The notes under the pieces are model-generated. The model was not told where the DNA came from. It searched no databases and worked only from the letters and a program-made list of their open reading frames with translations. This document shows positions 509 through 63,751 of a stretch of DNA of 64,000 bases, one piece after another. The stretch covers positions 2,604,001-2,668,000 of the forward strand of contig CP052876.1 of assembly GCA_020881835.1 (NCBI GenBank). The letters are read 5' to 3'. Every line of letters starts with the position of its first letter. Position 1 is the first letter of the stretch. The DNA comes from Kineosporiaceae bacterium SCSIO 59966 (GTDB lineage: Bacteria > Actinomycetota > Actinomycetes > Actinomycetales > SCSIO-59966). A program made the position numbers and the translations under genes.

Positions 509-1987
509 TCACGCGACGCCGAGGGCCTGCTTCACGGGGTCGATGGCGAAGTAGAGGACGAACAGCGCGGCCACGCCCCACATCAGGGGGTGCACCTGGC
601 TGGCCCGGCCGCGCGCCACCTTGAGCACGACATACGCGACGAAGCCGGCACCGATGCCGGCGGTGATCGAGTACGTGAACGGCATGAGCACGATGGTGAG
701 GAACGCCGGCATCGCGATCTCCAGGTCGTCCCAGTCGATGCCCTTGACCTGGGTCATCATGAGGAATCCGACGACGACGAGGGCCGGGGTCGCCGCCTCG
801 TAGGGGACGATAGCGACGACCGGGGCGAGGAACGTCGCGAGCAGGAACGCGACACCGGTGACGACGGACGCGAGGCCAGTGCGGGCACCCTCACCGACGC
901 CGGTCGCGGACTCGATGTAGCTCGTGTTGCTCGACACTCCGGCGGCACCGCCGGCAGCCGCGGCGACGGAGTCGACGACGAGGATCCGCCGGGCGTTGGG
1001 CGGGTTGCCGTCCGCGTCGAGCAGGTCGCCCTCCTTGCCGATGGCGACCATCGTGCCCATCGTGTCGAAGAAGTCGGCGAGCATGAGGGTGAAGACGAGC
1101 AGGACGACGCTGATGATGCCGATCTTCTCGATGGAGCCGAGCAGGCTGAACTGGCCGAGCAGGCCGAAGTCCGGTGTCGACACCCACTGCTCGGGTGGCG
1201 CGGGCACGTTGAGGCCCCACGCACGAGGGTTGCGGACCTCACCGTCTGCACCGATCTGCGGCCCGAGGTTCGCGACGGTCTCGACGAGGACGGCGAGGGC
1301 GGTCGCGGCGACGATGCCGCCGAGGATGGCGCCCTTCATCCCGCGGGCCATCATGACGACGATGAGCAGCAGGCCGACGACGAACACCACAGTGGGCCAG
1401 CCCGCGAGGAACCCGCCGATGCCGAGCTCGACCGGGGTGGGCCCAGCCGGTTTGCGGACGAAGCCAGCGTCGAAGAGACCGATGATCGTGATGAACAGCC
1501 CGATGCCGACGCTGATCGCCGTCTTCAGCTGCGCGGGCACGGCCCGGAACACCGCTTCGCGGAACCCGGTCAGGACCAGGACGAGGATGATGAGGCCCTC
1601 GAGGACGACGAGCCCCATCGCGTCCGCCCAGGTCATCTCCGGTAGCCCGGCGATCCCGAACGCCACGAACGCGTTGAGCCCCAGGCCCGCGGCCAGGGCC
1701 AGGGGGTAGTTCGCGACAAGCCCCATGAGGATGGACATCAGACCGGCGACGAGGGCCGTGGCCGCCGCGATCATCTCGAGGTTGGGGCCGTCGCCGCCAC
1801 CGAGGAAGCCGCCGCTGCCGTCCGGCACCGTGCCGAGGATGAGCGGGTTGAGCACGATGATGTAGGCCATCGTGAAGAAGGTCGCCAGCCCGCCGCGGAT
1901 CTCGCGGCCCACGGTGGAGCCGCGCTCCGTGATCCGGAAGAACCGGTCGACGGCGGACGGGGTGCCGGAGGAGGTCTGCGTCGCCAC
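509..1987 (-). CDS. NCS2-family purine permease (AzgA/PbuG-like)
   Basis: A 492-residue inner-membrane permease, probably a proton symporter for adenine, guanine or hypoxanthine. Family marks are GLATFFTMAYIIVLNP near residue 35, AGLGLNAFVAFG near residue 100 and FFDTMGTMVAIGKEGDLLD near residue 310, with about a dozen hydrophobic segments. The AzgA branch shares these motifs; the exact purine cannot be read from sequence. The GTG at 1985-1987 is the first sensible start and has no strong Shine-Dalgarno. The gene stands alone, and element A repeats begin 26 bases after its stop. Confidence 0.9.
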   Translation of the reverse strand: MATQTSSGTPSAVDRFFRITERGSTVGREIRGGLATFFTMAYIIVLNPLILGTVPDGSGGFLGGGDGPNLEMIAAATALVAGLMSILMGLVANYPLALAAGLGLNAFVAFGIAGLPEMTWADAMGLVVLEGLIILVLVLTGFREAVFRAVPAQLKTAISVGIGLFITIIGLFDAGFVRKPAGPTPVELGIGGFLAGWPTVVFVVGLLLIVVMMARGMKGAILGGIVAATALAVLVETVANLGPQIGADGEVRNPRAWGLNVPAPPEQWVSTPDFGLLGQFSLLGSIEKIGIISVVLLVFTLMLADFFDTMGTMVAIGKEGDLLDADGNPPNARRILVVDSVAAAAGGAAGVSSNTSYIESATGVGEGARTGLASVVTGVAFLLATFLAPVVAIVPYEAATPALVVVGFLMMTQVKGIDWDDLEIAMPAFLTIVLMPFTYSITAGIGAGFVAYVVLKVARGRASQVHPLMWGVAALFVLYFAIDPVKQALGVA

Positions 1988-17101: not shown

Positions 17102-18754
17102 GTGAACGACGGACCGCTCATCGTCCAGAGCGACAAGACGCTGCTGCTCGAGGTCGACCACCCGGCAGCTGAGGCGTGCCGCCGGGCGATCGCGCCGTTC
17201 GCCGAGCTGGAACGCGCCCCCGAGCACGTGCACACCTACCGGCTGACCCCGCTGGGACTGTGGAACGCCCGGGCCGCCGGACACGACGCCGAGCAGGTCG
17301 TCGACGTCCTGCTCGAGCACTCCCGCTACCCGGTGCCGCACGCCCTGCTCGTCGACGTCGCCGAGACGATGTCCCGGTTCGGCCGGCTCCAGCTCGCCAA
17401 CCACCCGGCGCACGGGCTCGTCCTGCGCGCCCTCGACGTCCCGGTGCTCGAGGAGGTGCTGCGCAGCGCGAAGGTGAAGCCGCTCGTCGGCGCCCGCGTC
17501 GAGCCGGACACCGTCGTCGTGCACCCCAGCGAGCGTGGTCACCTCAAGCAGGTGCTGCTCAAGCTGGGCTGGCCCGCCGAGGACCTCGCCGGCTACGTGG
17601 ACGGGGAGGCCCACCCCATCGACCTGGTCGAGGACGGCTGGGCACTGCGGCCCTACCAGGAGCAGGCCGTTGACGGCTTCTGGCACGGCGGGTCCGGCGT
17701 CGTCGTCCTGCCCTGCGGGGCCGGCAAGACGATCGTCGGCGCGGCCGCGATGGCCCGCGCTCGGTCGACGACCCTCATTCTGGTGACGAACACCGTCTCG
17801 GCCCGGCAGTGGAAGCAGGAGCTGCTCCGGCGCACCTCCCTCACCGAGGACGAGATCGGCGAGTACTCCGGCGCCCGCAAGGAGATCCGCCCCGTCACCA
17901 TCGCCACCTACCAGGTGATGACGACCCGCCGGAAGGGCGCCTACACGCACCTGGAGCTCTTCGACGCCCGGGACTGGGGGCTCGTCATCTACGACGAGGT
18001 GCACCTCCTGCCCGCGCCGATCTTCCGGATGACCGCGGACCTGCAGGCCCGCCGCCGGCTCGGGCTTACCGCGACCCTCGTGCGCGAGGACGGCCGGGAG
18101 GGTGAGGTGTTCTCCCTCATCGGTCCGAAACGGTTCGACGCCCCGTGGAAGGAGATCGAGTCCCAGGGGTACATCGCCCCGGCGGACTGCGTGGAGGTGC
18201 GGGTGACCCTGCCGGACGGCGAGCGGCTCGCCTACGCCACCGCCGAGCCGGAGGAGCGCTACCGGCTGTGCTCGACGTCGGCGGTCAAGCTGCGGGTCGT
18301 CGAGGACCTGGTCCGCCGGCACGCCGGGGAGCAGACCCTCGTCATCGGCCAGTACATCGACCAGCTCGACGAGCTGGCCGACCGGCTCGACGTCCCGCTC
18401 ATCAAGGGCGAGACGACGGTCCGGGAGCGGCAGCGGCTCTTCGACGCCTTCCGCGCCGGTGAGGTCCAGACGCTCGTGGTGAGCAAGGTCGCGAACTTCT
18501 CCGTGGACCTGCCCGAGGCCTCGGTCGCCGTCCAGGTGTCCGGCTCGTTCGGCTCCCGGCAGGAGGAGGCCCAGCGCCTCGGCCGGCTGCTACGGCCCAA
18601 GGGGGACGGGCGCTCCGCCCGGTTCTACGCGGTCGTCGCCCGCGACACCCTGGACCAGGAGTTCGCCGCCCACCGGCAGCGCTTCCTGGCCGAGCAGGGG
18701 TACGCCTACCGGATCGTCGACGCCGACGACCTGCTCGCCGGCACCCACGAGTAG
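17102..18754 (+). CDS. DNA repair helicase XPB (ERCC3-like)
   Basis: A 550-residue SF2 helicase, the usual length for bacterial XPB. An N-terminal XPB damage-recognition-like domain (1-170) precedes Walker A (PCGAGKTIVGA), the DEVH box (YDEVHLLP), motif III (RLGLTATLVREDGREGE) and C-terminal motifs LVIGQYIDQL, VVSKVANFSVDLPEA and QRLGRLLRPK. It unwinds DNA 3' to 5' and is linked to repair. The GTG at 17102 is chosen for the GGAAGGA upstream. The helicase-associated gene lies upstream. An 18-bp stretch of its 3' end recurs at 20717. Confidence 0.93.
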   Translation: MNDGPLIVQSDKTLLLEVDHPAAEACRRAIAPFAELERAPEHVHTYRLTPLGLWNARAAGHDAEQVVDVLLEHSRYPVPHALLVDVAETMSRFGRLQLANHPAHGLVLRALDVPVLEEVLRSAKVKPLVGARVEPDTVVVHPSERGHLKQVLLKLGWPAEDLAGYVDGEAHPIDLVEDGWALRPYQEQAVDGFWHGGSGVVVLPCGAGKTIVGAAAMARARSTTLILVTNTVSARQWKQELLRRTSLTEDEIGEYSGARKEIRPVTIATYQVMTTRRKGAYTHLELFDARDWGLVIYDEVHLLPAPIFRMTADLQARRRLGLTATLVREDGREGEVFSLIGPKRFDAPWKEIESQGYIAPADCVEVRVTLPDGERLAYATAEPEERYRLCSTSAVKLRVVEDLVRRHAGEQTLVIGQYIDQLDELADRLDVPLIKGETTVRERQRLFDAFRAGEVQTLVVSKVANFSVDLPEASVAVQVSGSFGSRQEEAQRLGRLLRPKGDGRSARFYAVVARDTLDQEFAAHRQRFLAEQGYAYRIVDADDLLAGTHE

Positions 18755-18811: not shown

Positions 18812-18858
18812 CCCGACCCCTTCGTAGTAATGGCGTTCTGGGAGGGGGTTCGCATAGA

Positions 18859-18917
18859 ACGTCCTCCTGTGTACACGTCTCGGGCTTGGTGTCCCAACGC
18901 GATGAACAGGAGGACGT
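18859..18917 (+). promoter_or_regulatory. Hairpin that would sequester the transposase ribosome-binding site
   Basis: ACGTCCTCCTGT (18859-18870) pairs perfectly with ACAGGAGGACGT (18906-18917). The second arm contains the AGGAGG Shine-Dalgarno (18908-18913) of the transposase. In a read-through transcript this would block translation. It might alternatively be part of an IS110 bridge RNA. Confidence 0.55.
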
Positions 18918-18919
18918 CC

Positions 18920-20266
18920 ATGGGTAATGGTACGGGTTTGACTCGGGGTGATCGGCGGCGTAACGAGCGGCGGGCCCGGCTGCGTGCGGCGGTGCCGGCG
19001 TCGGCTGCGGTGGTGGGGGTTGATCTGGGGGAGGACACCCAGATGGTGGTGGTCACTGACCGGGACTGCCGGGTACTGGCCCGGCGGGTGTTCAAGGGCA
19101 AGGCGTGGGAGCTGGGGCCGGTCCTGGACTGGGCGGTGGAGCAGGCTGCGCGGGCCGGGTTCACGGCGGTGACGTTGGCGTGTGAGCCGACCGGGTCACG
19201 GTGGATGGCGGTGCAGGACGCCGCCTTCGAGCGGGACCTGCTGGTGGTGTGTGTGCAGCCGCTGGCCGCGGCCCGGGCCCGGGAGGAGGAGGACTACACC
19301 CGGGACAAGTCCGACTACAAGGATGCGGTGCTGATCGCCCGGTTGGCCGGTGAGCTGCGCTGCTACGTCCCCGAACGTGTGGAGGAGCAGTGGGCGGTGC
19401 TGCGGCACCTCGGTCGCCGTCGTGGTGAGCTGATCACCCGGTCGACCCGGGCGGTGCTGCAGCTGCGTGACCTGCTCGCGGTGGGCTGGCCCACGGTCCT
19501 GACGGCGGCGAGCAAGCCGTTCGAGTCGATGACCTGGCAGGCGTCGGTGGCGGTGGTGCTGGACCGCTGCAACGGTGACCCGGCCCGGCTGCGGCGGATG
19601 GGCCTGGCCCGGTTCACCGACGCGGTGCGCCGTGAGCTGCCTCGCTGGGGTGGGCGCAAGATCCGCCGCCGGATCGTCGAGGGCGTGTTCGCCGCCCTCA
19701 ACGACACCACCGGCGCGGTGGCCCGCCAACGCGCCGGGGCGCTCAAACGCGCCGCCTGGGCGGTGGATGACCTGCGCGCCGCCCGCGCCCAGCAGCAGAC
19801 CGTCGAGCAGGAGATGCTCACCGCCGTGGACGCCCTGGGCCTGAGCGACCCGCTGGCCTCGATCCCCGGGCTGTCCCTGCCGGCTGCCGCGCAGATCCTC
19901 GCCGAGGCCGGTGACCCGACCCGCTTCGACAGCGCACGGTCCCTGGTCAAGCACGCCGGGCTGAACCCGGTGGAGAACACCTCGGCCACCTTCCGCGGCC
20001 GCACCCGCACCTCCAAACGCGGCCGCCCCGGGCTGCGGCTGGCCGCCTGGCGTGCCACCTGGACGGTGATCCGGCACAACCCGGTCCTGGCCGCCCGCCA
20101 CGCCCACCTGACCAGCCGCCAGCACAACCGGCTCACCCGCGCACAGGCCCACGTGGCCTGCGCCACGACCCTGCTGCGCTGGATCTACGCCGTCACCACC
20201 ACCGGGCAGCGCTGGGACCCCCGGATCGCCGCCGGCCCCACCACCGAGGCCCCCATGGCCGCCTGA
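18920..20266 (+). CDS. IS110-family transposase (DEDD recombinase)
   Basis: A 448-residue transposase. The N-terminal RuvC-like DEDD domain shows VVGVDLGEDT (Asp35), LACEPTGSRW (Glu) and YTRDKSDYKDA (Asp pair). The C-terminal Transposase_20 region reads SIPGLSLPAAAQILAEAGD, then KHAGLNPVEN and a serine-rich stretch before RTRTSKRG. IS110 enzymes use the Asp/Glu site with a C-terminal serine and a bridge RNA. ATG 18920 has AGGAGG six bases upstream. The gene appears intact. Confidence 0.9.
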   Translation: MGNGTGLTRGDRRRNERRARLRAAVPASAAVVGVDLGEDTQMVVVTDRDCRVLARRVFKGKAWELGPVLDWAVEQAARAGFTAVTLACEPTGSRWMAVQDAAFERDLLVVCVQPLAAARAREEEDYTRDKSDYKDAVLIARLAGELRCYVPERVEEQWAVLRHLGRRRGELITRSTRAVLQLRDLLAVGWPTVLTAASKPFESMTWQASVAVVLDRCNGDPARLRRMGLARFTDAVRRELPRWGGRKIRRRIVEGVFAALNDTTGAVARQRAGALKRAAWAVDDLRAARAQQQTVEQEMLTAVDALGLSDPLASIPGLSLPAAAQILAEAGDPTRFDSARSLVKHAGLNPVENTSATFRGRTRTSKRGRPGLRLAAWRATWTVIRHNPVLAARHAHLTSRQHNRLTRAQAHVACATTLLRWIYAVTTTGQRWDPRIAAGPTTEAPMAA

Positions 20267-20531: not shown

Positions 20532-20554
20532 GTGATCATGCAATCCCGCCACCC
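20532..20554 (+). repeat. Element A copy after the IS110 element
   Basis: A full 23-bp copy beginning GTGATCATGC, 18 bases before an element B copy. Confidence 0.9.
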
Positions 20555-20572
20555 ACGGCCCACTGTCCAGTT

Positions 20573-20635: not shown

Positions 20636-20715
20636 GCCGACGCGCCGGACCGGACGCGCCAAGCCGGGAAGGTCCCGCAGCACTCGGTGCACGCACCGGT
20701 CGACGTGGCGCGCGG

Positions 20716-20750
20716 AGGTACGCCTACCGGATCGACGATGCGGACGCCTG
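20716..20750 (+). pseudogene. Short fragment resembling the 3' end of xpb
   Basis: Positions 20717-20734 match 18 consecutive bases of xpb at 18699-18716. The encoded RYAYRIDDADA parallels GYAYRIVDADD at the end of XPB. It is probably a decayed partial duplication on the far side of the IS element; chance similarity is not excluded. Confidence 0.35.
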
Positions 20751-20898
20751 CGGGCGGACACGTGCGGGGCCTGATCCGGTACCGTCCGAGGCGTTAGCCC
20801 ACTGGAGTGGTCGGCGCGACGGACCGTAGAGCACCGCTTTACGGATTGTCACGAACGTCCGACACTGAGTAGGTCCGCCCGACGACAAGGAGAATGCC

Positions 20899-21267
20899 AT
20901 GAAGTCCCCGCTCAAGGTGCTCGCCGCGGCCGGCCTCGGCCTCGCGCTCGTGGTCACCGCTGCCCCCGCTCAGGCCGCCCCCAAGGACACGGCGGGAGCA
21001 TCCCTCACCGGCGCATCCCTCACCGGCGCATCCCTCACCGGCGCATCCCTCACCGGCGCATCCCTCACCGGCGCATCCCTCACCGGCGCATCCCTCACCG
21101 GCGCATCCCTCACCGGCGCATCCCTCACCGGCGCATCCCTCACCGGCGCATCCCTCACCGGCGCATCCCTCACCGGCGCATCCCTCACCGGCGCATCCCT
21201 CACCGGCGCATCCCTCACCGGCGCGTCCCTCACCGGCGCGTCCCTGACCGGCGCCTCGCTAACCTGA
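20899..21267 (+). CDS. Secreted pentapeptide-repeat protein of 18 ASLTG units
   Basis: A 122-residue exported protein. The signal peptide [19 protein letters not shown] ends at AQA-APKD near residue 27. Mature residues 34-122 consist only of Ala-Ser-Leu-Thr-Gly, 17 full copies plus a final ASLT. This fits the A(D/N)LXX pattern of pentapeptide repeats, which form a right-handed quadrilateral beta-helix with the Leu inside. AAGGAG lies before ATG 20899. The GGDEF/EAL gene begins 44 bases after the stop. No function is assigned; secreted beta-helices of this kind could be structural or ice/DNA-mimic-like. Confidence 0.85.
20998..21264 (+). repeat. Tandem 15-bp repeat inside the pentapeptide gene
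   Basis: Seventeen units of GCATCCCTCACCGGC plus a 12-base terminal unit. The first 15 are identical in sequence; only the last three show silent changes (GCG, CTG, TCG). Such homogeneity suggests recent expansion or ongoing slippage or gene conversion. Confidence 0.95.
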
Positions 21268-21311
21268 CGTCACGGGGCCCGGTGGTCCGCCCTATCGACG
21301 TTGGAGCACAG

Positions 21312-23774
21312 ATGACCACGCAAGACGTCGAAGGGTCCCGTAGCCAGGCCACGCTGGTGCTGGCTGGTCTGGTCCTGGCGGCCACCGGGCTCATCGCATT
21401 TCTTCCGTCAACGGGGGTCGAGGTCGACCCCGGCATCGGGCTGCCCGTTGCCAGTGCCTTCGTCGCGGTCCTGTTCGTGATGGCGGAGCTGAGCAAGCTG
21501 CACGTCGAGGTGCGGGGACAGGCCTTCTCCGTGTCACTGAGCGATCTCCCGCTCGTGCTCGGTCTGTTCCTTCTGCCGCCCCCGCTTCTGCTCGCAGCTC
21601 GGCTCGTGCCTGCCGCTGTGGTCATGCTCGCGCGCCGGACCGAGATACCGAAGGGCCTATTCAATGGCGGGCTGTTCACGCTCGAGGTCGGCTTGGCCGT
21701 CCTCGTCATGGACGCACTGGTCCCTGAACGCGGTTTCGGCATCAGCACGTGGCTAGGGACCTACGCCACCGTCCTCATCGTGGACGTGGTCGGTGGCGCA
21801 GTCGTCATCTGGGCCATGCACCGGCTCGGCAGTGCGCCGTCCCGGGCTCAGGCGTACCGGATGCTCGCCGCTCTGGTCGTGTCCGGGATGCTCAGCACGA
21901 CACTCGCCCTGATGGCGGTTCTCGTGCTGCATGCCTCCACCGCCGGACTGGCGCTCCTTGGGACGCTAGCCGTCGCAGTGGCCCTTGCTCACCGCGGGTA
22001 CCACCGCCTGCTGCGGCAGCACAACGACCTCAACCGGTTGTTCCTGTTCACCCAGTCCGTCGGCGCCGAGCCCAGGACCGAGGAGGTGGTGCACCAGCTG
22101 CAGATGGAGGCTGCGGATCTGCTGAACGCAGAGAGCGCCGTGGTTCGCCTGCTTCCGGGGCCGGAAGCGGAGGGAGACGACAAATCGGCTGACCGGTTCT
22201 TGTGGACCGCTCCCCCCTGCGCCGTGCCGCGGACGACACGGGACCCGGCTCAGCGAGCATGGCTGGACCGAACCGGGGTGCGTGACGCCGTCCTTGTGCC
22301 TCTGCACGACGACGGACAAGCGGTCGGCGTGGTCCAGGTAGCCAACCGGCGGGGGGCGGCGAGCTCGTTCACCGAGGACGACCTCAAGCTGCTGCAGACT
22401 CTGGTCGCCCACGTCGAGGTGCTCTGGCACAACGGCCGGCTCGTCGACCAGCTGCGCCACGAGGCGACCCACGACGCCCTGACCGGCCTGGGCAACCGCA
22501 CCCTGTTCAACGACGGGTTGCAGGCCCTCATCGACGGCGGCGGCCACGGCGCGACCCTGCTGCTCGACCTCGACCGGTTCAAGGAGGTCAACGACGCCCT
22601 CGGTCACCCGGTCGGTGACGTCCTGCTCGAGAAGGTCGCCGCCCGGCTCCTGGACCACGTCCCGACCGGCTCACAGGTGGCCCGGCTCGGCGGCGACGAG
22701 TTCGCCGTCCTGCTGCGCGGTCTCACCTCACCGGAGGAGGCGCTGGCCACCGCGCGCGCCGCGCGGGCCGCCCTCACCGGAGCGTTCGAGGTCACCGGCA
22801 CCTTCCTCGAGGTCGGCGTCTCCGTCGGCGTCGCCATGGTGCCCTCGGACGGCGGGGACGCTGCCACGGTGCTGCGCCGGGCCGACCTGGCCATGTACGA
22901 GGCGAAGCGGACGGGGGCCGGCGTCGTCCGCTACAGCCCGGTCCTCGACCACCGCAGCACCGGCCTGCTCGAGCTGGCCGGCGAGCTCCGCTCGGCGGTG
23001 GAGCAGGACCAGATCGTCATGTACTTCCAGCCCAAGGAGAGCCTGCGCACCGGCCGGATCGTCGGCTTCGAGGCCCTCGCCCGCTGGATGCACCCCGAAC
23101 GCGGGGTCGTCATGCCCGAGGTGTTCGTGCCGCTGTCCGAGCAGACCGGCCTGGTCGGGCTCCTCGGCGAGGCCGCCGCCAGCCAGGCGCTCGAGCAGTG
23201 CCGGACCTGGCTGAGCCGCCGGCCGGGTGTCGGCGTCGCCGTCAACCTCTCCCCTCGCCGGCTGCTCGAGCCGGGTCTCGCCGCCTCGCTGGACCGGTTG
23301 CTCGCCGAGCACGAGGTCCCGGCAGAGCTGCTGACGCTGGAGATCACGGAAAGCACCGTGATGGCCGACCCGGACGCCGCGGTCCGGGCCATGCACCAGC
23401 TGCGGGACCTCGGCGTGCGGCTGTCGGTCGACGACTTCGGGACCGGCTACTCGTCACTGAACTACCTGCACCGGCTGCCGGTGCAGGAGGTGAAGATCGA
23501 CAAGTCGTTCGTGCTGCCGATGCACCGGGACGTCGGGGCGACCGCCATCGTGCGCTCGATCGTGGAGCTCGCCCACACCCTGGAGCTCACCGTCGTCGCC
23601 GAGGGGGTGGAGAACGAGCCCACCCGGCAGGCCCTCGTCGAGCTGGGCTGCGACGTCGGCCAGGGCTTCGGCCTGGCCTACCCGATGCCACCCGAGGACG
23701 TGCAGGACTGGCTGGTCCGGCACGACGCCACCCGGCGCGAGCGGCGCGCAGGAGGGCGCCCCCGGGCCGTGTGA
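21312..23774 (+). CDS. Membrane-bound GAF-GGDEF-EAL cyclic-di-GMP enzyme
   Basis: An 820-residue protein. Residues 10-240 hold seven or eight membrane helices, followed by a GAF-like domain (about 250-380). The GGDEF domain has THDALTGLGNR and RLGGDEF (460-464) but no RxxD inhibitory site five residues before it. The EAL domain has FEALARW (Glu587), DDFGTGYSSL, KIDKSFV and AEGVEN, so phosphodiesterase residues look complete. It should make and/or break c-di-GMP at the membrane. ATG 21312 follows TTGGAG. A response regulator gene follows 70 bases later. Confidence 0.93.
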   Translation: MTTQDVEGSRSQATLVLAGLVLAATGLIAFLPSTGVEVDPGIGLPVASAFVAVLFVMAELSKLHVEVRGQAFSVSLSDLPLVLGLFLLPPPLLLAARLVPAAVVMLARRTEIPKGLFNGGLFTLEVGLAVLVMDALVPERGFGISTWLGTYATVLIVDVVGGAVVIWAMHRLGSAPSRAQAYRMLAALVVSGMLSTTLALMAVLVLHASTAGLALLGTLAVAVALAHRGYHRLLRQHNDLNRLFLFTQSVGAEPRTEEVVHQLQMEAADLLNAESAVVRLLPGPEAEGDDKSADRFLWTAPPCAVPRTTRDPAQRAWLDRTGVRDAVLVPLHDDGQAVGVVQVANRRGAASSFTEDDLKLLQTLVAHVEVLWHNGRLVDQLRHEATHDALTGLGNRTLFNDGLQALIDGGGHGATLLLDLDRFKEVNDALGHPVGDVLLEKVAARLLDHVPTGSQVARLGGDEFAVLLRGLTSPEEALATARAARAALTGAFEVTGTFLEVGVSVGVAMVPSDGGDAATVLRRADLAMYEAKRTGAGVVRYSPVLDHRSTGLLELAGELRSAVEQDQIVMYFQPKESLRTGRIVGFEALARWMHPERGVVMPEVFVPLSEQTGLVGLLGEAAASQALEQCRTWLSRRPGVGVAVNLSPRRLLEPGLAASLDRLLAEHEVPAELLTLEITESTVMADPDAAVRAMHQLRDLGVRLSVDDFGTGYSSLNYLHRLPVQEVKIDKSFVLPMHRDVGATAIVRSIVELAHTLELTVVAEGVENEPTRQALVELGCDVGQGFGLAYPMPPEDVQDWLVRHDATRRERRAGGRPRAV

Positions 23775-23844: not shown

Positions 23845-24570
23845 GTGGCACGACCGGACACCCCCGAGGCCAGGCTGCTCGTCGTCGACGACGAGCCGAG
23901 CATCCGCGACCTGCTGGCGGCCGCACTGCGGTTCGCCGGCTTCGAGGTCCACACCGCGGCCGACGGCCAGGAGGCGCTGCGGCAGGCCGAGCTGACCCGC
24001 CCCGACCTCGTCGTCCTCGACGTCATGCTCCCCGACCTCGACGGGTTCGCCGTCACCCGCCGGCTGCGCGAGCGCGGCCGGGACGTGCCGGTGCTGTTCC
24101 TCACGGCACGGGACGACGTCCAGGACAGGGTGACCGGTCTGACCGTGGGCGGCGACGACTACGTGACGAAACCGTTCTCGCTGGAGGAGGTCGTCGCCCG
24201 GATCCGCGCCGTGCTGCGACGCACCGGCGCAGGCGCCGACCCGGCCGCCGGCCGGCTCGTGTTCGCCGACCTCGAGCTCGACGAGGACGCCCACGAGGTC
24301 CGCCGCGGGGAGCGCACGATCGAGCTGTCCCCCACCGAGTTCAAGCTGTTGCGCTACCTCATGCTCAACCCGAACCGGGTGCTGTCGAAGACGCAGATCC
24401 TCGACCACGTCTGGCACTACGACTTCGACGGCGAGGCCTCGATCGTCGAGTCGTACATCTCCTACCTGCGGCGCAAGGTCGACCACGCCCCCGACGGGTC
24501 GCCGCTCGCTCCACTGATCCACACCCGGCGCGGGGTCGGTTACGTGCTGCGCCTCCCGCCGGAGGAGTGA
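23845..24570 (+). CDS. OmpR/PhoB-family response regulator
   Basis: A 241-residue regulator. The receiver domain has the acidic pair in VVDDEP, phospho-acceptor Asp59 in VVLDVMLPDLDG, the Thr in FLTARD and the Lys in YVTKPFS. A winged helix (about 145-238) includes ELSPTEFKLLRYLMLNPNRV and SYISYLRRKVD. Its TGA stop overlaps the ATG of the sensor kinase gene (TGATG), so the pair is translationally coupled. The HtrA-type protease downstream may be a target, as in MprAB/PepD systems; this is inference. Confidence 0.93.
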   Translation: MARPDTPEARLLVVDDEPSIRDLLAAALRFAGFEVHTAADGQEALRQAELTRPDLVVLDVMLPDLDGFAVTRRLRERGRDVPVLFLTARDDVQDRVTGLTVGGDDYVTKPFSLEEVVARIRAVLRRTGAGADPAAGRLVFADLELDEDAHEVRRGERTIELSPTEFKLLRYLMLNPNRVLSKTQILDHVWHYDFDGEASIVESYISYLRRKVDHAPDGSPLAPLIHTRRGVGYVLRLPPEE

Positions 24571-26036
24571 TGCGCCCGCTCGCCTCGTCCTCGCTACGGA
24601 CCCGGCTCGTCGCCATCGTCTCCGGGCTCGTCATGCTGTCGCTGCTCGCGGTCGGCGCGGCCACCCTCGCCGCCATGCGCCCGGCACTCGTCGCCGACCT
24701 CGACGACCGGCTGTCCGCCACGGTCGCCGACCCACGGGCCCTGGAGATGCTGGTCAACGACGCCGGCCTGGGCCGGCGGATGCACAACCGACTCCCGACG
24801 GACTACGTCGTCCGCGTCAACGACGCCGCCGGCGAGCAGGTGTTCCTGGACGCCGGGATCACCCCGTTCGAGGACCTGCCGGACCTGTCGGCGGTCACCC
24901 TGGAGCGGGTCCGCGCCATCGGCGGCGACCCGTACACGGTCGACGGGTGGCGGGCCGTGTCCCGCCCCGTGGCGGTGGCCACCCCGACGGGCCGCAGGGC
25001 CGGCTCGGTCACCGTCGCCCTGCCGCTGGCCCCCGTGGACGCGACGCTGGCGGCACTTGCCGCCCGGATCGCCGTCCTCGGGCTGGTGGTGCTGGCGGCC
25101 AGCGTGCTCGCAGGTTGGCTGGCGGTGCGCAGGGCGTTCCGGCCGCTGCGGGACGTCGAGACGGTCACCGCCGCGTTCGCCGACGGCGACACCTCCCGAC
25201 GGGTGCCGGCCGCGCCGGCCGGCACCGAAGTCGGACGACTGGGCGCCGCAGTCAACGAGATGCTGGACCGGATCGAGGCCGACCTCGCAGCCCGGGAGGC
25301 CAACGAGAGGCGTATGCGCCGGTTCGTCAGCGACGCCGGCCACGAGCTACGCACCCCGCTCGCCGCCGTCCGCGGTTTCGCCGAGCTGCACCGCCAGGGG
25401 GCCGTCCGGGACCCCAAGGACGTCGCCCGGACCATGGGGCGGATCGAGCAGGAGGCGGTCCGGATGAGCGGCCTCGTCGAGGACCTGCTCACCCTGGCCC
25501 GGCTGGACGAGCAGCGGCCTCTGCGGCGGGAGCCGGTCGACCTGCTGGTGCTGGCCGCCGACGCGGCCGAGAGCCTGCGCGCGCTCGCCCCGGACCGACA
25601 GGTCCGGCTGACGGGCCTGGACGGTGCCGGGCCGGCCGCCACCCCGGTCGTCGGCGACGACGCCCGGCTGCGGCAGGTGCTGACGAACCTGGTCGCCAAC
25701 GCGGCCCGGCACACCCCGGCCGGCTCCCCGGTGGAGATCGAGGTGGGCACTCGGCAGGGGTGGGCGCTGTGCCGGGTCGTGGACCACGGGCCCGGGGTTC
25801 CGGCCGAGGACGCCGAGCGGGTCTTCGAACGGTTCTGGCGGCGGGACGAGTCCCGCTCCCGCGGCGCGGGCGGCGGGTCGGGTCTCGGGCTGGCGATCGT
25901 GGCCGCCCTCGTGCGCGCCCACGACGGCGCCGTGCGCGTCGTCCCCACCCCCGGCGGCGGGGCGACGTTCGAGGTCGCTCTGCCCGCGGCGTCCTCAGGT
26001 TTCTCCCAGGAAGGGCCCAGCCCGGCCGCAGGCTGA
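24570..26036 (+). CDS. HAMP-containing sensor histidine kinase
   Basis: A 488-residue kinase. One membrane helix near residues 15-35, an extracytoplasmic sensor region (40-155), a second helix (about 163-185), a HAMP linker (RRAFRPLRDVETVTAAF), the H-box DAGHELRTPLA with His258, an N-box (LTNLVANAARHTP), and G boxes DHGPGVP and GGSGLGLAIV. It phosphorylates the upstream OmpR-type regulator, whose stop codon overlaps this start. The architecture matches MprB/TcrY-like kinases of actinobacteria. Confidence 0.93.
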   Translation: MRPLASSSLRTRLVAIVSGLVMLSLLAVGAATLAAMRPALVADLDDRLSATVADPRALEMLVNDAGLGRRMHNRLPTDYVVRVNDAAGEQVFLDAGITPFEDLPDLSAVTLERVRAIGGDPYTVDGWRAVSRPVAVATPTGRRAGSVTVALPLAPVDATLAALAARIAVLGLVVLAASVLAGWLAVRRAFRPLRDVETVTAAFADGDTSRRVPAAPAGTEVGRLGAAVNEMLDRIEADLAAREANERRMRRFVSDAGHELRTPLAAVRGFAELHRQGAVRDPKDVARTMGRIEQEAVRMSGLVEDLLTLARLDEQRPLRREPVDLLVLAADAAESLRALAPDRQVRLTGLDGAGPAATPVVGDDARLRQVLTNLVANAARHTPAGSPVEIEVGTRQGWALCRVVDHGPGVPAEDAERVFERFWRRDESRSRGAGGGSGLGLAIVAALVRAHDGAVRVVPTPGGGATFEVALPAASSGFSQEGPSPAAG

Positions 26037-28407: not shown

Positions 28408-28424
28408 ACCCCCAACCCCCACTC

Positions 28425-28480
28425 GTGATCATGCAATCCCGCCACCCCACCCCACTCGTGATCATGCAATCCCGCCACCC
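28425..28480 (+). repeat. Two element A copies between convergent genes
   Basis: Copies at 28425-28447 and 28458-28480, both reading with the WXG100 gene, past its terminator. The convergent PIG-L gene ends at 28501. Confidence 0.9.
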
Positions 28481-35420: not shown

Positions 35421-35438
35421 GGCCAGACGGTGGCCGCA

Positions 35439-35503
35439 GGGTGGCGGGATTGCATGATCACGGGGGGTTAGGGGGGTGCAGGGTGGCGGGATTGCATGAT
35501 CAC
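35439..35503 (-). repeat. Two element A copies downstream of coxG
   Basis: Copies at 35439-35461 and 35481-35503, both in the direction of the minus-strand coxG gene, whose stop is at 35512. Confidence 0.9.
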
Positions 35504-35511
35504 GGGGGGGG

Positions 35512-36315
35512 TTAGGGGCGGGGGTGGCGGCGGCGGGCCAGCCACCAGGTGACGACCGCGGTGACGACGACGGCGACCGCCGTCGTGCCGTACCGGCTCA
35601 CCAGCGCCGGGCCGACGACCGATCCCAGGTCGAGCTCGGCGCTGGTCCTCCGGGTCGCCGGCGGCGCCAGCGGGCGCGGGGGCGGCGTGCTGGGAGCGGG
35701 CTTCGCGGCAGGCTCCCCCGGAGCGGCACCGCCGACCGCAAACTCCTGCGCGGCGGCAGGCTCCTGCGCGGCGACGGCCCGCTGAGCGGCGTCCTGGTCG
35801 GCGGACGGCACCGGCTCCCGAGCCTCCGCCTGCTCCGGCGAGGCCGCTGGCTGCTCAGCCTCCGCCGGCGCCGGAGCGCCCAGCGTCTCGGACAGGCAGG
35901 TCGCGAACTGCCCGAGCAGCTTGTCCCCGACGTCGGAGATCACGCCCCGGCCGAACTGGGCCGGCCGACCGGTGATCCGCAGGTCGGTGTCCACGACGCA
36001 CCGGGTGCCCTCGCCCTCGGGCTCGAGCCGGGCGGTGATGGTGGCCGACGCCGTCCCGTTGCCACGCCTGTCCTTGCCGCTGGCCTCGATGACCGCGCGG
36101 TAGGCGTCCCGGTCCCGCTCGAGGAACCGCCCGGTCCCGGTGTAGTGCAGCGAGATCGGCCCGAGCCGCACCTTCGCCAGCCCGGTGAAGTCGTCGCCGT
36201 CCATGCTGGTCACCTCGGCGCCCGGCAGGCACGGGGCGATCCGCGGCAGGTCGTTGAACGCCTCCCACGCAGCCTCGACGGGCAGCGGGACGGTGAACGT
36301 GTGCTGAAGCTCCAT
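35512..36315 (-). CDS. CoxG-type SRPBCC protein with C-terminal membrane anchor
   Basis: A 267-residue protein. Residues 1-150 are a START/SRPBCC fold of the carbon monoxide dehydrogenase subunit G family (MELQHTFTVPLPVEAAWEAF, LPRIAPCLPGAEV, FLERDRDAYRAVIEASGKD). An acidic Pro/Ala-rich linker follows, then a single membrane helix and WWLARRRHPRP. In Oligotropha, CoxG helps anchor CODH to the membrane. It ends the coxS-coxL-coxM-coxG operon, with four bases before coxM. Its tail is duplicated in the chimera at 34618-34974. Confidence 0.88.
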   Translation of the reverse strand: MELQHTFTVPLPVEAAWEAFNDLPRIAPCLPGAEVTSMDGDDFTGLAKVRLGPISLHYTGTGRFLERDRDAYRAVIEASGKDRRGNGTASATITARLEPEGEGTRCVVDTDLRITGRPAQFGRGVISDVGDKLLGQFATCLSETLGAPAPAEAEQPAASPEQAEAREPVPSADQDAAQRAVAAQEPAAAQEFAVGGAAPGEPAAKPAPSTPPPRPLAPPATRRTSAELDLGSVVGPALVSRYGTTAVAVVVTAVVTWWLARRRHPRP

Positions 36316-62747: not shown

Positions 62748-63437
62748 GTGACCCAGCCCGCTCCCGCCGTCCGGACGGAGGTCGTGCACCCCTCGTGGCT
62801 GCCTGTCCTCGACCGCGTCGCCCCGGCGCTCCGCGACGTCGGAGCGCACCTGGCGGCCGAGGCGGCCGCCGGCCACGCGGTGCTGCCGGCCCCCGACCGA
62901 GTGCTCCGCGCGCTCGCGACCCCGCTGGACGACGTCCGGGTGGTCATCGTCGGGCAGGACCCCTACCCGACCCCGGGGCACCCGGTCGGCCTGGCGTTCG
63001 CCGTCGACCGGGCGGTCACCGTGCTGCCCGGGAGCCTGCGCAACATCTACCGGGAGCTGCACGCCGACACCGGGATGCCGGTGCCCGGGCACGGGGACCT
63101 GTCCGCGTGGACCGGGCGCGGGGTGCTGCTGCTCAACCGGGTTCTCACGGTCCGGGCCGGAGCGCCGGGCTCGCACCGGCAGCGTGGCTGGGAACAGGTG
63201 ACGGACGCCGTGCTGCGGGCGCTGGTGCACCGTGGCGGACCGCTCGTCGCCGTGCTGTGGGGCCGGCAGGCGCAGACCCTGCGCCCGGCGCTCGGCGACG
63301 TCCCCGTCGTGACCGGCGCCCACCCGAGTCCGCTGTCGGCGTCCCGCGGCTTCCTCGGCTCACGGCCGTTCAGCTGCGTCGACGAGCTGCTGACCGCCCA
63401 GGGCGCCGACCCCGTCGACTGGTCCCTCCCTCGGTGA
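62748..63437 (+). CDS. ung: Uracil-DNA glycosylase
   Basis: A 229-residue family 1 UDG. The water-activating motif is VVIVGQDPYPTPGHPVGLAF (Asp71); NRVLTVRAGAPGSHRQRGWE follows. The DNA-intercalation loop reads GAHPSPLSASRGF, with the catalytic His in HPSPLS. It removes uracil from DNA. GTG 62748 is preceded seven bases upstream by TAGGCA, close to the leaderless pattern. The TGA stop (63435-63437) lies inside element A at 63434. Confidence 0.95.
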   Translation: MTQPAPAVRTEVVHPSWLPVLDRVAPALRDVGAHLAAEAAAGHAVLPAPDRVLRALATPLDDVRVVIVGQDPYPTPGHPVGLAFAVDRAVTVLPGSLRNIYRELHADTGMPVPGHGDLSAWTGRGVLLLNRVLTVRAGAPGSHRQRGWEQVTDAVLRALVHRGGPLVAVLWGRQAQTLRPALGDVPVVTGAHPSPLSASRGFLGSRPFSCVDELLTAQGADPVDWSLPR

Positions 63438-63493
63438 TCATGCAATCCCGCCACCCCGCTCCCTCTCTCGGTGATCATGCAATCCCGCCACCC
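63434..63493 (+). repeat. Two element A copies, the first containing the ung stop codon
   Basis: Copies at 63434-63456 and 63471-63493, both in the ung direction. The TGA of ung is bases 2-4 of the first copy, so the coding sequence ends within the repeat. Confidence 0.9.
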
Positions 63494-63512
63494 CGCACGC
63501 ACCCCGTTCGCC

Positions 63513-63607: not shown

Positions 63608-63743
63608 GCGGATCATGCAGTCTCGCCATGTCCCACTCTCCGAGGGTGGCGGGATTGCATGATCACCGACAGGGGCGCAGTGGTGGGCGGGATTGCATGA
63701 TCACCAACAGGGGGCGCAGTGGTGGGCGGGATTGCATGATCAC
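63608..63743 (-). repeat. Cluster of element A copies downstream of the amidohydrolase
   Basis: A degenerate plus-strand copy lies at about 63608-63630. Minus-strand copies lie at 63644-63666, 63682-63704 and 63721-63743, the last two with the variant GGTGGGCGGG. The three read in the direction of the amidohydrolase gene (stop 63752). The last two are separated by a repeated CAACAGGGG-like linker. Confidence 0.85.
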
Positions 63744-63751
63744 GAAGAGGG

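Follow-up and report, generated by a model that had tools for sequence, protein, structure and literature searches.

A putatively exported pentapeptide array and its relatives beside membrane GGDEF/EAL proteins of Actinobacteria: possible extracellular cues for c-di-GMP signalling

Within a 64,000-nucleotide stretch of DNA from Kineosporiaceae bacterium SCSIO 59966 (the window), a gene for a putatively exported protein that is largely one repeated five-residue unit lies directly upstream of a gene for a membrane protein with GGDEF and EAL domains, and this pair belongs to a wider group in which units of a common pattern precede partners with the same type of N-terminal membrane domain. The explanation that we favour, at a little short of an even chance, is that the five-residue unit may be an extracellular cue for the membrane domain of the adjacent c-di-GMP protein. 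On sequence grounds, such a cue is favoured over a beta-helical matrix protein.

The array gene of the window comprises the following features.

20887 to 20892, forward strand: ribosome-binding site AAGGAG, 6 nt upstream of the ATG of the array gene, read directly.
20899 to 21267, forward strand: array ORF of 122 residues, sequence read directly.
20899 to 20976, forward strand: signal peptide, residues 1-26, assigned by eye from its basic start, a hydrophobic stretch and an AQA site.
20977 to 20997, forward strand: linker APKDTAG, from the translation.
20998 to 21267, forward strand: 18 pentapeptide units of 15 bp each, with the stop codon at 21265-21267 (Tandem Repeats Finder, PF00805, AlphaFold model).

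The last of the 18 ASLTG units ends at the stop as ASLT and, in the register set by the stop, the unit reads GASLT. At the DNA level, 15 of the 18 units are identical (GCATCCCTCACCGGC) and the final three deviate, Tandem Repeats Finder giving 17.1 copies with 99% matches. Codon bias does not explain this identity, because the expected chance that two ASLTG units agree at all five codons is about 0.011 and the Ala codon of the unit is GCA, which accounts for 22 of the 273 Ala codons of four neighbouring genes. An earlier note on this DNA had described a secreted protein of 18 ASLTG units encoded by 15-bp repeats that had recently expanded or actively vary in length; the first part stands, with the signal assigned by eye, and the expansion is borne out by the 15 identical units once codon bias is excluded. 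A search of the host genome (3.1 Mb, one contig, actinobacterial) for a second such array gave none, the other matches being short or 44-48% identical. No terminator-like site was found between 20270 and 21420, promoter and Rfam scans at the array locus returned nothing, and no gene for a processing protease lies next to the array.

The surroundings bear marks of their own. An IS110-family transposase gene (18830-20266) lies directly 5' of the array gene, and a 43-bp stretch before the array gene (20709-20752) is 84% identical to 18691-18734, the 3' part of an XPB-like helicase gene that lies beyond the IS110 gene. A repeat that has GTGATCATGCAATCCCGCCA as its core is dispersed, with 407 copies in the genome at no more than one mismatch (196 forward, 211 reverse), often clustered in groups of 2-4, while the same core written backward, taken as a control, has 0. 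Its places in the window are given in one line.

418 to 503, 20536 to 20557, 28417 to 28480, 35436 to 35530, 63423 to 63496 and 63648 to 63751: dispersed repeat with the GTGATCATGCAATCCCGCCA core.

Judged by HMM match and copy number, the window protein is a member of the pentapeptide-repeat superfamily: it scores 104.5 bits against PF00805 (Pfam cut-off 20.2) and has 18 contiguous consensus units, at least eight being the mark by which these proteins are recognised in the available text of PMC8145042. A single-sequence AlphaFold model, with pLDDT 88-95 over residues 41-122, shows a strand every five residues, and in structural comparison it comes nearest to synthetic beta1 solenoids and to natural pentapeptide-repeat proteins, a superfamily with a right-handed quadrilateral beta-helix (over 96 residues Z reaches 9.8, in an aligner for which Z below about 13 may, for repeats, reflect a common arrangement only); Foldseek gave TM-scores of 0.17-0.40 among the 50 matches listed. 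In the window, a beta-helix with about 4.5 coils is the probable fold of the 18 units, in agreement with the fold proposed earlier, and the export signal proposed with it is supported by eye. An ice-binding face, with ladders of Ser and Thr on a beta-helix, was considered and rejected: relatives with 4-5 units or with Trp units oppose it, and in the text that the literature search covered ice binding and this repeat type co-occur just in a genome report.

Downstream of the array lie the partner gene, 44 bp beyond the array stop on the same strand if its ATG at 21312 (preceded by GGAG) is used, and two further signalling genes.

21312 to 23774, forward strand: partner gene, encoding the membrane domain, GAF, GGDEF and EAL domains (HMM, translation).
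21312 to 22070, forward strand: N-terminal membrane-domain part of the partner, which defines the group.
22464 to 22916, forward strand: GGDEF domain, residues 385-535, GGDEF motif present (128.6 bits, translation).
22983 to 23678, forward strand: EAL domain, residues 558-789, EAL motif present (239.4 bits, translation).
23845 to 24570, forward strand: response regulator with a winged-helix output domain (HMM).
24567 to 26036, forward strand: histidine kinase (similarity to the G009 gene; kinase assigned by eye).

An in-frame GTG at 21282 is a possible alternative start. By its GGDEF and EAL domains, each with the motif that names it, the partner is a c-di-GMP turnover protein. Its membrane domain falls below the cut-off of every Pfam family, though as a profile it is found in 59 of 394 genomes of the class (own genome included), and it gives a low-quality model (pLDDT 52).

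The neighbourhood recurs elsewhere. Among 297 genomes of the order, with no other member of the genus or family of the window, the top match of the window protein outside its own genome is a GARLT array in G009 (64% identity), where the next three genes match those of the window, namely the GGDEF/EAL gene (40%), the response regulator (80%) and the kinase (46%). Since G009 shares the gene order of the window, the N-terminal membrane domain of the partner was used as the next query. Repeat similarity alone, by which the window protein matched 87 of the 297 genomes at 1e-8 and from which G009, later G226, were taken further, was dropped as a route to relatives in favour of this domain. By sequence search, it was found in 29 of 396 order genomes, own genome included, in 42 rows that include the window; of the remaining 41, 40 were retrieved and 34 entered the catalogue of units, six being left out as fragments or other arrangements (L082, L094, L103, L105, L109 and L112). 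A tree of 34 partners holds the window and 33 catalogue loci, L083 also being left out. The class profile search returned 123 rows and, excluding G000 and G226, 88 of 121 were read, with the 33 weaker ones excluded.

A Leu-type pentad gene immediately precedes each of the five closest partners, which come from five families and group as one clade (support 100/99 in the tree of 34). Their units are GASLT in 18 copies (window), ten units in G226 (7 SSLS and 3 SSIS), GLSLN in four copies (G039), GARLT in 11 (G009) and GSSLT in about five (G015, where the N terminus is lost at a contig end); outside this clade the units are of the Trp type, for example GLRWN and GAGWR. The link with a c-di-GMP enzyme that had been drawn from the window alone is thus strengthened, the array-partner neighbourhood being found again in other families. 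The partner locus is patchy, the domain occurring in 1 of 199 genomes of the family of G226, which suggests horizontal transfer, and the locus may indeed move in this way.

Across the wider group, a unit was seen upstream of the partner, partly by eye, in 73 of 122 loci besides the window (68 of the 110 where the upstream sequence spans 700 bp or more, 5 of the 12 where it is shorter), and 49 of the 122 showed none, the no-unit loci being chosen by eye. The units of L073-L076 come from a separate array reading, the locus scan having given another ORF or none; L148, L149 and L152 were counted with a single unit, L185 and L193 (one Trp unit each) were left uncounted, and the arrays of L073, L150, L156 and L189 are clipped by contig ends. 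Of the 74 units, window included, 57 begin with Gly, and 69 have Trp and five have Leu as their fourth residue; the pattern is small-x-x-(Trp or Leu)-x, and copies range from 1 to about 22. The carrier is either a small protein or the tail of a subtilase. Of 40 fetched regions, 17 have a subtilase gene immediately before the partner and in the same orientation, and all 17 tails read end in Trp-type pentads (GSRWS, SARWS, GVRWS), with Trp, or Trp and one more residue, at the very end. At the window locus there is no subtilase, and the host genome has five subtilase matches, of which the four read (4/4) are without such a tail.

The small upstream proteins carry 13-residue repeats with AHRWE (G128), ARWMG (G063) or GSSWA (G092), or units such as GASWN in three copies (G487), GATWN (G402), GSGWH (G460), SNGWQ in four (G426), GTSWH (G475), GTRWG in two (G422), ASIWN (G507) and SHTWE in four (G439); in G048, a small GSSWA protein sits between a tailed subtilase and the partner. 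Long pure arrays are formed by GAGWR (22 copies), GSSWR (19), GLRWN (11) and GLTWR (9), and at the other end of the range G729 and G571 have an apparent single unit at the C terminus of the protein. For GASWN, SNGWQ and GTSWH the spacers differ although the unit is constant, and in sister loci the units are spaced by 7-13 residues or apparently single. Copy number of one unit varies among species of one genus, with one genome per species (GLRWN 11 and 9, GLTWR 9 and 7, GRTWA 8, 8 and 6, GHTWS 8, 8 and 6), and RARWS and ARSWR each have three copies in both loci compared. By a hydropathy rule, most small pentad proteins have a signal sequence or a membrane anchor at the N terminus; L145 (GTGWH in four copies) and L195 (GVKWG in three) are without an export signal, yet were counted. 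A few pentad proteins compared with Pfam and NCBIfam matched no entry for the group or for its link with the membrane domain, and the open-access literature yielded no description of either.

The association of pentads with the partner is strong but non-exclusive. In a position control over 31 partner regions (317,959 bp, six frames), in which an array was defined as at least five copies within 70 residues, 12 regions had an array 296-837 bp 5' of the membrane domain and one had its array 1.9 kb off, on the opposite strand; 18 regions had none, and outside these positions no array was found in the 31 regions. A Trp-pentad query of nine whole genomes gave 24 rows from six genomes, of which 18 adjoin partner genes and three meet a contig end before the downstream gene; of the others, one is followed by 1.5 kb without a partner match (G462:C277), one has another GGDEF gene about 2 kb away (G456:C4) and one has a chitin-binding-like end (G439:C13). 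In the reverse search, 39 of 394 genomes had the subtilase tail, and 35 of these 39 belong to the 59 that carry the partner domain (Fisher p about 1e-29, uncorrected for relatedness). A partner follows within 1.5 kb in 41 of the 78 matches, and in 37 none follows directly within that distance; among 11 of these 37 that were inspected, five meet contig ends, four have unrelated neighbours, one precedes an EAL-like gene and one a similar membrane domain.

A few single cases were also recorded. L297 and L326 are Trp-pentad subtilases that end in a chitin-binding-like module (by eye). In a Nocardiopsis bin (L011, about 1640-1669, minus strand), ALTG and ASLTG repeats lie within an ORF resembling a HAD-type phosphatase, and L032 (G119) has a pure 15-bp array encoding SSATG repeats in a 348-residue ORF. 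A 15-bp SLTG-like tandem array about 1 kb upstream of the partner gene in L104 (G134) lies outside any ORF with an export signal and was left uncounted as a pentad protein.

The units follow their partners. Over 74 loci, unit similarity correlates with membrane-domain identity (r 0.30), as it does for Trp units only (r 0.31) and for partners less than 70% identical (r 0.22), with 0 of 500 shuffles as high in each case; adjacent genes are inherited together, so part of this correlation would be expected from that alone. Paralogous loci within one genome differ in their units in 25 of 26 pairs, and the sole pair with the same unit is also the closest (55%). When partners from different genomes are more than 80% identical, the unit is common to the set (RARWS, GRTWA, GATWS, GHTWS, GLRWN and GLTWR) in all sets but one. 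That exception, G048/G092, comes from the reading, since one locus was represented by its subtilase tail and the other by its small protein; the small GSSWA protein occurs in both genomes.

Free spacing, small copy numbers, private units and a fixed place beside a membrane c-di-GMP protein suggest that what is conserved is a short word to be recognised, and not a repeat with a structural role. As a cue, the window protein would be a secreted multi-copy display of one pentapeptide, GASLT, acting either as peptides freed from the array or as an intact array touching the membrane domain, and once exported it would alter the synthesis or breakdown of c-di-GMP via the partner. Because the units of the window are contiguous and probably folded, the intact array could be the active form there. 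We infer export from the signal sequences that were assigned by eye or by the hydropathy rule, as well as from membership in the subtilase family; we likewise infer contact between array and membrane domain, any processing and any effect on c-di-GMP. Counting against a cue are the loci without a unit (49/122), the subtilase tails without an adjacent partner (37/78), the two counted pentad ORFs that lack an export signal and the absence of a processing-protease gene beside the window array, and the two Trp tails before a chitin-binding-like module, read by eye, point to a surface role. Against a peptide precursor in particular, the long Leu-type array is modelled as a stable fold, which free peptides would not need.

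A broader version, somewhat less likely, is that these loci represent an undescribed kind of actinobacterial signalling, in which membrane GGDEF/EAL receptors with a new type of sensor domain would each have a private ligand, an exported and locus-specific pentapeptide array. The arrays, in many cases part of a subtilase that may itself do the processing, would supply each paralogous pair of a genome with its own word and array length would set the dose of ligand, the window gene being the Leu-type extreme with 18 copies and without a protease.

A role at the surface or in the matrix, unlikely in our estimate, retains real weight because of the fold of the window protein and the two chitin-binding-like tails. 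In such a role, Leu-type repeats would form a beta-helix with a Thr/Ser face and Trp-type repeats would bind wall or exopolysaccharide, holding subtilases and small proteins at the surface in a programme under c-di-GMP. The beta-helix model and the location of several tailed subtilases away from a partner gene would fit. However, the same slot also holds arrays with 4-5 units, units spaced by 13 residues and what seem to be single copies, and a unit that tracks the partner and differs between paralogues would be unexpected of a general adhesive. The beta-helical surface or matrix protein of the earlier note is not supported as a conserved role: G039 has four units and G015 about five, under the eight of a pentapeptide-repeat protein, and sister loci have widely spaced or apparently single units. 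We take the beta-helix to be a property of the long Leu-type array of the window, rather than a conserved function.

Less probable still is a regulator resembling YjbI, a secreted pentapeptide-repeat protein of Caulobacter that silences envelope-stress pathways in the account given by the accessible part of PMC12864828. Here the folded solenoid would act from outside on an envelope sensor, either the two-component pair or the GGDEF/EAL protein, with no peptide code. Compared by description only, YjbI combines PF00805 with a secretion signal as the window protein does (signal by eye), and a response regulator and kinase lie 3' of the partner in both the window and G009. This pair of genes is nevertheless found, besides the window, in G009 only (1/40 fetched regions), and relatives with Trp units or 13-residue units occupy the same place without a PF00805 match (4/4 tested). 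Finally, a minor short exported protein inflated by replication slippage, beside the partner merely by inheritance, would suit the recent expansion and the short ASLTG runs inside the unrelated phosphatase ORF of the Nocardiopsis bin, and is very improbable, since the slot is filled across many families by differing units of the Gly/x/x/Trp-or-Leu/x pattern that are in frame and mostly accompanied by an export signal, which neutrality would lose.

The cue that we favour matters for the following reason. For most membrane GGDEF/EAL proteins no signal is known, and a recognisable unit beside a whole group of them would provide a candidate ligand for each locus that can be read from sequence. An odd repeat then becomes a question: does the word set the level of c-di-GMP, and are paralogous pairs insulated from one another by their words?

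Comparison with known systems helps to place the group. The best NCBIfam match of two tailed subtilases of relatives is the mycosin of T7SS (TIGR03921), at 116-117 bits against a cut-off of 278.75, and the tailed subtilases differ in ending in Trp pentads. With Qnr and MfpA, which protect gyrase, the window protein has the fold family in common, but it falls far under the NCBIfam cut-offs (MfpA 39.9 of 360 bits, Qnr 22.1 of 240) and has an export signal. The exported PF00805 proteins (Rfr32 of Cyanothece and YjbI of Caulobacter) are closer, the window protein sharing with them the HMM match, the consensus, the modelled beta-helix and the putative export signal, whereas it consists of a signal peptide and one near-uniform unit only, and its relatives in the same slot are in some cases too short and in others of the Trp type without a Pfam match.

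The nearest likeness in mechanism is with the Phr propeptides of the Rap-Phr systems (RRNPPA), in which a small exported precursor is encoded beside the gene of its receptor, as the window array is beside its partner; short candidate precursors, exported by prediction, lie beside a candidate receptor in the window and for most small pentad proteins. The available portions of PMC11343458 and PMC5199041 describe Phr propeptides as sometimes containing several copies (up to 8 reported) of a signal of 5-10 residues, matured by extracellular proteases, and signals as diverging along with their receptors. The pentad arrays differ in having up to about 22 contiguous copies, some of them on a subtilase, and the window partner is a membrane GAF-GGDEF-EAL protein rather than a cytoplasmic RRNPPA receptor. 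The candidate receptor being of another kind, the parallel with Phr is one of mechanism and not of membership. Repeat proteins or propeptides that are exported and encoded next to a signalling protein are a known theme; what appears to be new, as far as the open-access literature was searched, is the group of pentads that goes with this membrane domain.
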